Assembly: GCA_012729785.1 (NCBI GenBank)
Contig: JAAYCL010000014.1
Coordinates: forward strand, 43,271-107,270
Length of the DNA: 64,000 nt
Direction: 5' to 3'
From: Chlamydiota bacterium
GTDB lineage: Bacteria; Auribacterota; Tritonobacteria; UBA1439
In this document: positions 3,112-52,740 of the stretch, piece after piece
Layout: each line of letters starts with the position of its first letter
How positions within the stretch are numbered: position 1 is the first letter of the stretch
Translations under genes and position numbers: made by a program
The notes under the pieces: generated by a model
Told to the model about the DNA's origin: nothing
Database searches by the model: none
Seen by the model: only the letters and a program-made list of their open reading frames with translations

Positions 3112-3222
3112 GAAGACGCTGTATGCAACTGTTTCCGCACGAATGTGGTATGGCATTATTCGTCCCGGGGACGATTAAATCCGTAAGATGTTGAAGCGGT
3201 GAGTGTTGTATACAACGTCTGC
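3112..3222. mobile_element. 111-bp MITE-like palindromic element, copy 1
   Basis: Non-coding element with imperfect terminal inverted repeats (gaagacgctgtat at 3112-3124 and atacaacgtctgc at 3210-3222; two mismatches in 13). Its reverse complement aligns without gaps over all 111 bp to copy 2 at 11534-11644, with 74 identical positions by hand count. The best-preserved block is the interior ccggggacgattaaa (about 3166-3180). It sits 80 bp after the propeller gene and ends 17 bp before the metalloprotease start, so that gene's ribosome-binding site lies just outside it. No target duplication is obvious. Confidence 0.7.
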
Positions 3223-10589: not shown

Positions 10590-11537
10590 GTGGAACGGAC
10601 GCTCGGCGACATCGGCGAGTTCGCCCTCATACGGGAGCTGAGGGGGCGGCTGTCCGCGGGGCCGGGGACGCTCGTCGGCATCGGGGACGATGCGGCCGTG
10701 CTCGAGCCGCCCGCCCCGGGGCGCGTCCTGCTCTTCACGACGGATATGCTCGTCGAGGGGACGCACTTCGACCTCGCCGCCGCCTCCCCGTACCGGATCG
10801 GGTGGAAGGCGCTCGCCTGCAGTCTGAGCGACATCGCCGCGATGGGCGGCGTGCCGCGCGCCGCGGTCGTGTCGCTTGGCGCCCCCGGGGGGCTCGGCGT
10901 CGACTTCTGCCGCGAGCTGTACCGGGGTATGGACGAGGCCGCCCGGCGGTTCGACTGCGGGATCGCGGGGGGGGACACCGTCGGGAGCAGTCGCGGGCTC
11001 GCCGTGTCGGTGGCGATGCTCGGGGATGTGGAGCGGGAGCGGCTCGTCTTGCGCTCCGGCGCCCGCACCGGCGACGGCCTCTGGGTGACCGGGTGGCTGG
11101 GGGGATCGCTCGCGGGCAAACACCTCGCCTTCACGCCGCGGGTGCACGAGGCCCGTTTCCTCGTCGAGCGCTTCCCGGTAACGGCGATGATGGATCTGAG
11201 CGACGGGCTCGGGAGCGACCTGTTCAGGATGGCGGAGGCGAGCGAGGCGGGGTTCCGGCTGTGCGCCGGCCGGATACCTGTCGACAGGGCGGCGATCGGG
11301 GATGCGGACGAGGAGACGCTCCTCCGGAGGGCGCTCTACGACGGGGAGGATTTCGAGCTGCTCGCGGCGGTGGCCCCCTCCGTCGACGACGCCGTCGTGA
11401 AGGAGGCGTTCGACGCGCGTTTCGACTGCGGGATCCGGCGGATCGGGACGGTGATGGGAAAGGCGCACGGCATCACGCTCTCGACGCCGGAGGGGGAGAG
11501 GCCCCTCATCGAGGGGGGGTTTGCACACCTCGCGTAG
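10590..11537 (+). CDS. thiL: Thiamine-monophosphate kinase
   Basis: 315 aa, starting with GTG. It phosphorylates thiamine monophosphate to the diphosphate cofactor. Seen: GDIGEFALI at the N-terminus, VGIGDDAAVL, TTDMLVEGTHFDL, the SDIAAMGG segment and MDLSDGLGSDLFRM, all typical of ThiL in the PurM/AIR-synthetase fold. It follows mtnA closely. Its TAG stop (11535-11537) lies within the left terminal repeat of the 111-bp element, so the native C-terminus may have been altered by the insertion. The Thi4-type thiazole synthase at 23900 supplies an upstream step of the same pathway. Confidence 0.92.
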   Translation: MERTLGDIGEFALIRELRGRLSAGPGTLVGIGDDAAVLEPPAPGRVLLFTTDMLVEGTHFDLAAASPYRIGWKALACSLSDIAAMGGVPRAAVVSLGAPGGLGVDFCRELYRGMDEAARRFDCGIAGGDTVGSSRGLAVSVAMLGDVERERLVLRSGARTGDGLWVTGWLGGSLAGKHLAFTPRVHEARFLVERFPVTAMMDLSDGLGSDLFRMAEASEAGFRLCAGRIPVDRAAIGDADEETLLRRALYDGEDFELLAAVAPSVDDAVVKEAFDARFDCGIRRIGTVMGKAHGITLSTPEGERPLIEGGFAHLA

Positions 11538-11644
11538 ACGTTGTATATAACTCACGCCGCCGCAACGAGTTAATACTTTAATCGTCCCCGGTACGTTTAA
11601 AGTTGTAATTCGTTCTCTGGGAGTATGATGGATACAACGTCTAC
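11534..11644. mobile_element. 111-bp MITE-like palindromic element, copy 2
   Basis: Perfect 13-bp terminal inverted repeats: gtagacgttgtat (11534-11546) and atacaacgtctac (11632-11644). It aligns without gaps, in inverted orientation, to copy 1 at 3112-3222. It fills the whole thiL-tsaE junction: the thiL stop codon is inside the left repeat, and the tsaE start (11625) and its gggag Shine-Dalgarno are inside the right part. Its A/T content is visibly higher than the flanks. It encodes no transposase, so any mobility would be in trans. Confidence 0.75.
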
Positions 11645-12095
11645 CTTATTTATCTCTTCGGGACCTGAAGAGACGCGGCGCATCGGGGCGCGCATCGGCG
11701 CGCGCCTGAAGCCCGGCGCGGTGCTCGCGCTCCGCGGCGAACTCGGGGCGGGGAAGACCTGCTTCGTCCAGGGGCTCGCGGAGGGGCTCGGGATCGTCCC
11801 GCCCGCGCGCGTGAGCAGCCCGTCGTTCGTCATCATCAACGAGTACCCGGCGCGCATCCCGCTCTTCCATTTCGACCTGTACCGCCTCCCCGACGGGACT
11901 GAACTGGTCGAGCTGGGCTGGGAGGACTACCTCGAGCGCGGGGGGGTGATCGCGATCGAGTGGGCGGAGCGGATGGCGGCGCTTCTCCCGGAGGACCGCA
12001 TCGATATCGAGATCGAGGTCACCGGCGAGAAGAGTCGCCGGATCACCGTGCGGGGGGCGCAGGCGGAAAGACTGGCCGCGGATGGAGGCGGCTGA
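11625..12095 (+). CDS. tsaE: tRNA t6A-synthesis ATPase TsaE
   Basis: 156 aa. TsaE is the ATPase partner of TsaB-TsaD in making N6-threonylcarbamoyladenosine at position 37 of ANN-decoding tRNAs. Seen: Walker A GELGAGKT, SPSFVIINEY, FDLYRL and AIEWAER, in the expected order. The first six to seven codons, the start and the Shine-Dalgarno come from the 111-bp element. TsaB follows 101 bp downstream and TsaD is at 38206, so three members of the t6A machinery are in the window. Confidence 0.92.
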   Translation: MMDTTSTLFISSGPEETRRIGARIGARLKPGAVLALRGELGAGKTCFVQGLAEGLGIVPPARVSSPSFVIINEYPARIPLFHFDLYRLPDGTELVELGWEDYLERGGVIAIEWAERMAALLPEDRIDIEIEVTGEKSRRITVRGAQAERLAADGGG

Positions 12096-13085: not shown

Positions 13086-13162
13086 TGGTGGGCGATGCAG
13101 GACTTGAACCTGCGACCTCTTGGGTGTGATCCAAGCGCTCTAGCCAGCTGAGCTAATCGCCC
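13086..13162 (-). tRNA. tRNA-Val (anticodon CAC)
   Basis: The minus strand folds into a full cloverleaf: acceptor GGGCGAT/ATCGCCC, D arm GCTC...GAGC, anticodon stem CTTGG/CCAAG with loop ATCACAC (anticodon CAC, reading GUG), T arm GCAGG-TTCAAGT-CCTGC, discriminator A and an encoded CCA. It stands alone between tsaB and a divergent plus-strand gene. Confidence 0.93.
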
Positions 13163-14171: not shown

Positions 14172-14589
14172 GTTCAGGGCGGGCCGGGCGGCCGCGCCGG
14201 GCGCGAAAGCGCCCGGCGAGGAAAGTCCGGACACCACAGGGCGGCGCACCTCGATAACATCGGGGCGGTCGGGGACCCGCAAGGGCCTCCGGCAAGGACC
14301 AGTGCCACAGAGACGCCCTGCCATCGGGCAGGGCGCCCCGCCTTCATGGCGGGGCGAGTCCTCCGGCAACGGAGGGGTGAAACGAGGCAAACTCTGCGCG
14401 GTGCAAGGCCAAATAGGGGGCGAGGAGCTGCCCGCTCCGATCCCGCAAGGGGACAGCCCCGGGTAGGCCGCTTGAGCCGCGGAGCAATCCGCGGCCCAGA
14501 GGAATGGCCGCCGTCCGGTGCGCAAGTGCGGGTGCATTCCCCACTCGGGCACAGGGATACAGAATCCGGCTTATAGGCCCGCCCTGACA
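14172..14589 (+). ncRNA. rnpB: RNase P RNA, bacterial type A
   Basis: The 5' tgttcagggcgggc pairs with the 3' gcccgccctgaca to form P1. Conserved regions are in order: GAGGAAAGTCCGGAC (about 14217-14231), GTGCCACAGAGA, GGGTGAAACGAGG, GGTGCAAGGCCAAATAGG, and near the 3' end ACAGAATCCGGCTTATAGGC. The length of about 418 nt is normal for type A. This is the ribozyme that matures tRNA 5' ends. Exact ends are uncertain by a few bases. An imperfect hairpin at about 14096-14130 precedes it. Confidence 0.93.
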
Positions 14590-52662: not shown

Positions 52663-52740
52663 GGTGGGTGTAGCTCAGCTGGTTAGAGCACCTGGTTGTG
52701 GCCCAGGTTGTCGGGGGTTCGAATCCCCTCATCCACCCCA
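52663..52740 (+). tRNA. tRNA-His (anticodon GTG)
   Basis: Complete cloverleaf with the diagnostic extra G-1 (52663) opposite discriminator C73. Acceptor GTGGGTG/CATCCAC, D arm GCTC...GAGC, anticodon stem CCTGG/CCAGG with loop TTGTGGC (anticodon GTG), T arm GGGGG-TTCGAAT-CCCCT, and an encoded CCA ending at 52740. Single tRNA gene with no neighbouring tRNA. Confidence 0.95.

Follow-up and report, generated by a model that had tools for sequence, protein, structure and literature searches.

A family of GTAG-footed palindromic elements in Candidatus Auribacterota, very probably REPINs moved by a RAYT transposase

The genome of a Candidatus Auribacterota bacterium (GenBank assembly GCA_012729785.1) carries, within the 64,000-nucleotide stretch of contig JAAYCL010000014.1 that we analysed (the window), two non-coding palindromes of 111 bp each, and we asked what kind of element these are and what moves them, or once did. 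The original prediction held them to be two inverted copies of a MITE or of another folded, transposase-dependent element, with ends known from no described family.

The window palindromes and their family in the genome

Both elements have the boundaries first drawn for them (Table 1), and they align without gaps once one is reversed: copy 1 matches the reverse complement of copy 2 at 74/111 positions, exactly the number first counted by hand. The description of the two as inverted copies stands as far as this reversed alignment is concerned; as a statement about relative orientation it does not, since each copy is palindromic in itself (self-identity 74/111 and 78/111), and the direct alignment, at 72/111, leaves little information in the comparison. 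The ends of copy 2 are the perfect 13-bp inverted repeats that had been reported for it, and those of copy 1 are mismatched at foot positions 2 and 8, both in the left foot. As DNA, each copy folds better than all 200 of its dinucleotide shuffles (z of -3.5 and -5.2 for the two copies). A search of Rfam yielded no match at copy 1 or copy 2; elsewhere in the window it identified two tRNAs, at 13089-13162 (-) and 52664-52737 (+), and a class A RNase P RNA at 14176-14589 (+).

The elements are far from alone. A BLAST search of the whole genome with copy 2 reached copy 1 at E=3.1e-6, beyond chance, along with many other places, and a pattern built on two 10-bp ends recovered four complete elements. 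A 55-column profile made from 28 half-units then gave 34 units at E<1e-5, spread over about 23 loci of the 2.59-Mb genome, most of these units having been among those used to build the profile; the idea that only two loci exist therefore fails. The four half-units in the window score 41-52 bits, values that are not independent of the profile since it was made from copies of the family, although the pattern and BLAST searches had picked these up beforehand. Twelve doublets are present at the approximately 23 loci, and no two copies are identical in sequence. All copies are extragenic, in that no long coding ORF from a simple composition-based gene call spans an element. Where an ORF of coding-type composition reads into a foot, the TAG of that foot is usually its stop codon (9 of 11 such ORFs, or 9 of the 34 feet overall).

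Two unusual members deserve mention. A mini-element of 55 bp at G000:C37:79724-79778 (L089:4725-4779) consists of two feet only, and its TAGs end both of the convergent neighbour genes. The doublet on contig C25 of the same genome (units 67752-67806 and 68278-68332) has a 471-bp insert at its centre (L077:5797-6270), with a 157-aa ORF that resembles the end of an IS4-family transposase (NF033592, 4e-6, below the cut-off); from its sequence, this ORF is a putative IS remnant in the centre of a REPIN.

Table 1. Coordinates of the two window elements and of the RAYT locus (window positions unless a contig is given)
Feature	Position	Strand	Remark
Copy 1, complete REPIN (two inverted 55-nt units, 1-nt centre)	3112-3222	.	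Ends 17 nt before the ATG of the next gene
Copy 1, left 55-nt unit; foot GAAGACGCTGTATGCAAC, inner arm to CGTCCC	3112-3166	+	Profile R1, 44.1 bits over positions 2-55
Copy 1, right 55-nt unit	3168-3222	-	Profile R1, 49.3 bits
Copy 2, complete REPIN between thiL and tsaE	11534-11644	.	Empty site in four related genomes
Copy 2, left 55-nt unit	11534-11588	+	Profile R1, 51.6 bits
Copy 2, right 55-nt unit	11590-11644	-	Profile R1, 41.1 bits
TAG of copy 2 GTAG foot, stop codon of thiL (ORF 10590-11537)	11535-11537	+	
ATGATG inside copy 2 right unit, likely start codons of tsaE (ORF 11625-12095)	11625-11630	+	MMDTTST-LFISSGPEET aligned with the tsaE starts of relatives
RAYT (Y1/HUH transposase), 230-258 aa	G000:C14:7147-7836		39 kb from copy 1, outside the window
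RAYT-flanking unit	C14 7101-7155	+	
RAYT-flanking unit	C14 7902-7951	-	
RAYT-flanking unit	C14 8013-8067	-	

Unit architecture and pairing of the inner arms

The basic unit of the family is 55 nt long and is found singly or as an inverted doublet. All 28 units first collected align over exactly 55 columns, with no insertion or deletion, and the columns fall into three parts: a nearly invariant foot, GTAGACGTTGTATnYAAC, in columns 1-18; 15 variable nucleotides in columns 19-33; and an inner arm of 22 nt in columns 34-55 that ends in CGTCCC in most copies. The two units of a doublet are separated by 0-1 nt in eight cases and by 11-12 nt in two.

Although the inner arms vary from copy to copy, the two arms of a doublet agree with each other much more closely than arms taken from different copies. 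Over columns 34-49 of the 12 doublets we counted 149 matches of 192, against 113 expected, a value reached in 0 of 20000 permutations, whereas columns 1-18 and 19-33 had no excess of within-copy matching. The result was unchanged when one near-duplicate and the two long-insert doublets were left out. In the seven copies of 111 nt, changes on both sides were found at 13 of the 22 inner pairs, and sliding the partner by a single column lowered pairing from 88% to 30-34%. The ends that flank transposase genes, which lie approximately 700-860 nt apart, have matching inner arms as well. Within a single unit covariation is weak and gives no convincing stem; the only plausible one is a 4-bp hairpin, GTTG-TATn-YAAC (columns 7-10/15-18), in which no two-sided change was seen. 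A pyrimidine occupies column 15 in 22 of 24 units and column 18 in 24 of 24, a one-sided signal that falls short of proving the hairpin.

Matching of this kind might also come from quasi-palindrome correction, that is, template switching during replication, a proposal that concerns the cause of the covariation and not the identity of the element. Such correction is expected near the tip of a palindrome, and the matching region is indeed the central 22 nt of each side; against it stand the sharp boundary that every copy shows at column 33/34 and the agreement of the arms despite inserts of 471-857 nt between the units. The column-33 limit and the matching across these inserts favour selection for pairing over template switching, and we regard correction as a rather unlikely source of the signal.

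Insertion sites and a transposase with the same ends

Comparison with related genomes revealed that the sites of the two window elements are not shared. In four genomes of the same family (G002, G003, G004 and G005) thiL overlaps tsaE, and the last conserved codon of ThiL lies 19 nt from the first conserved codons of TsaE; here copy 2 stands between the two genes, and 6 flanking nucleotides remain. Copy 1 precedes a peptidase-like gene, the ortholog of which in G001, a member of the same genus, has a similar leader directly before its ATG and no element. In 12 elements we found no convincing target duplication, the abutting matches being 0-2 nt.

The transposase with matching ends that the original prediction called for is encoded on contig C14, by a Y1/HUH gene flanked by units of the family. 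Its product matches Pfam Y1_Tnp at 3.5e-8, above the curated cut-off, and NCBIfam REP_Tyr_transpos (NF047646) at 2.4e-17, but with 63 bits against an equivalog cut-off of 80; it is therefore RAYT-like and not an equivalog by the NCBI definition. The HUH motif is present as HFH and the class 2 Y motif (Y---NP) as YIERNP, and Pfam reported no HTH domain. A search of the RAYT sequence against solved structures gave no match. An AlphaFold model of a 53%-identical homologue (mean pLDDT 86.7, pTM 0.84) was matched best in the PDB by 4er8, a complex of the E. coli RAYT with a REP hairpin, and from this model and the Pfam match the C14 protein is predicted to carry the Y1 HUH transposase fold. We considered and rejected as cognate a second, different RAYT-like gene at C36:27851-28264 (L085:5849-6580), which lies beside a solo unit and has inverted ends of its own (GGGGTCGGACCACG).

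We conclude that the window elements are very probably REPINs of a REPIN/RAYT system, moved by the C14 RAYT. A REPIN of this family would be a non-autonomous single-strand transposon made of two inverted, GTAG-footed units, each with a foot (GTAG, AC and the possible mini-hairpin GTTG-TATn-YAAC), the 15-nt variable stretch and the 22-nt inner arm; pairing of this arm with that of the partner unit would turn the whole 111 nt into one long hairpin. The RAYT, now or formerly, would be the agent of its spread. If it acts as do the RAYTs that have been studied (PMC8266576, PMC6006769), it would recognise the folded foot on single-stranded DNA, probably on the lagging-strand template, and its tyrosine would cut beside the foot before the strand is joined elsewhere. 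Because the copies have diverged, movement is probably old or rare. The genome is compact, and insertions may survive mainly at the 3' ends of genes, with the TAG of the foot acting as a stop codon.

A host-maintained RNA or DNA structure, such as a terminator, an mRNA stabiliser or a protein binding site whose mobility lies wholly in the past, would account for the compensatory changes in the inner stem, the strong folding and the location at gene 3' ends, and it is compatible with a REPIN origin. We consider it unlikely: the sites are not conserved between relatives, and a local terminator hairpin would not need arms that match across the approximately 700-860 nt between transposase ends. 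The elements may nonetheless serve the host in a second capacity, as terminators or stabilisers of RNA. The multi-copy family, the folding palindrome, the sites empty in relatives and the transposase with the same ends all bear out the prediction of a folded, transposase-dependent element, and it is the label MITE that has to be given up in its usual sense: an element derived by deletion from a DDE insertion sequence, which moves as double-stranded DNA and makes a short duplication of its target, could have long terminal inverted repeats, dispersed copies and empty sites, but is highly improbable given that 0 of 12 elements have such a duplication, that the gene flanked by these ends encodes a Y1/HUH protein, and that the sole DDE trace found with units, the below-cut-off IS4-like remnant in one element, gives no sign of owning the ends.

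Related RAYTs and described systems

The RAYT locus has a counterpart in G002, which belongs to another genus of the same family and, like G005, to Candidatus Auribacterota (G006 is Candidatus Tritonobacter lacicola). There the same deacetylase-like gene has a RAYT of 53% identity next to it, and the order is that of this genome: unit, unit, RAYT and inverted unit (REP-REP-RAYT-REP). This syntenic RAYT (L124:4112-4837, G002:C185) may be inactive, because HFR replaces its HUH motif. A second G002 RAYT, on contig C4, has HFH and variant units of its own. In G003 and G004 the site is empty, since the deacetylase-like gene there directly abuts its convergent neighbour. G003 has kept approximately 20 units, yet no RAYT of this clade was found in its assembly, which is 94% complete. 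The RAYT locus is best explained by an old insertion that was inherited vertically, though with these genomes loss and gain are indistinguishable. Many of the G003 units are gathered in a 45-kb stretch of a single contig (G003:C4:140277-184671). Integron attC sites were considered on account of the palindromes and of the clustering in G002 and G003, and were set aside because the ends, judged by eye, do not fit RYYYAAC/GTTRRRY.

Among the named genomes scanned, most other relatives of the C14 RAYT are found in Candidatus Omnitrophota, with a few in Myxococcota and Desulfuromonadales. The majority of these genes are flanked by inverted repeats of 55-57 nt that share the layout of the window units, namely GAC at positions 4-6 of the foot and, near position 35, an AGTTA/AGATA motif. 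The closest relatives have NNAGAC feet, and in a sister group the feet are GGGGACAC or GGGGACGG, sequences that fit or resemble the GGGGWSAS consensus for the ends of TIRYTs. In a tree of 41 RAYTs, with foot labels assigned by eye and six rows without clear ends left unlabelled, foot type switches once, at a branch with 93/94 support; as far as these sequences tell, the element ends follow the RAYT tree. We tentatively suggest, as a possible history, that a single foot change turned GGGGAC-footed TIRtrons into the GTAG-footed REPINs of this RAYT clade, with the 55-nt architecture kept, and with an element-specific arm that is required to pair with the other end.

The claim that no described family has these ends is correct for the exact sequence, within the searches made, and incorrect for the kind, as GTAG-tagged REPINs with RAYTs are well described (PMC3116915, PMC3733652). 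In Pseudomonas fluorescens SBW25, whose GII doublets have a spacing of 110 bp (Bertels and Rainey 2011, PMC3116915), REPINs likewise have two inverted conserved ends, a spacer of fixed length, a whole-element hairpin, compensatory changes and a cognate RAYT. The window family differs in its 18-nt ends with a separate inner arm, its phylum, its RAYT flanked by units in a 2+1 layout, and its approximately 23 loci against hundreds, a copy number that is low for REPINs. With GTAG-tagged REPs and REPtrons (PMC3733652) it shares the GTAG foot, doublets in opposite orientation, location at gene 3' ends, a repeat-flanked RAYT and TAG stops, which Di Nocera et al. (2013, PMC3733652) noted in GTAG REPs; its unit, however, is 55 nt where theirs are 20-40 bp, and a long stem of its own is not convincing.

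TIRYTs and TIRtrons have GGGGWSAS ends (PMC3733652) and probably belong to subclass 2.1 of TnpAY1 (Quentin et al. 2018, PMC6006769). Like them, sister RAYTs of the C14 protein, at 35-41% identity, come with terminal inverted repeats, here of 55-57 nt, that start with GGGGACAC and have the same layout as the window units. The feet of the window clade, in contrast, are GTAGAC or NNAGAC, and its own ends (GTAGACGT) do not fit GGGGWSAS. The 'double foot' REPs of TnpAY1 subclass 2.4 (PMC6006769) carry GTAG and CTAC at their two ends, an arrangement that is exact at C37:79724-79778, whereas the protein motifs differ in part (THFH, WQ and YIERNP here; NH[IFV]H, WQ and YIxNNP there). IS200/IS605 transposons such as IS608 and ISDra2 share the Y1 HUH transposase fold and depart from the window system in having Y---Q in place of YIERNP, the ends here being long inverted repeats.

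REPIN/RAYT systems are thus already known as a kind of bacterial mobile DNA, of which the window system is a new branch. What is new is the occurrence in Candidatus Auribacterota, for which we found no report of such elements among open-licence papers, and the RAYT tree on which ends with AGAC feet and ends with GGGGAC feet (TIRYT-type), alike in layout, are one switch apart. The findings extend REPIN/RAYT systems to this phylum, with relatives in Omnitrophota, and tie to one transposase tree two end types that had been described as unrelated, the GTAG REPs and the GGGGWSAS TIRs. At thiL/tsaE a mobile hairpin separates two overlapping core genes and supplies a new stop codon and, in all likelihood, the new tsaE start. 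Because the conserved foot, the free spacer and the covarying inner arm are so cleanly set apart, it can be tested directly what end-to-end pairing does; if mobility does require the ends to pair, that requirement would act like a lock between the left and the right end.
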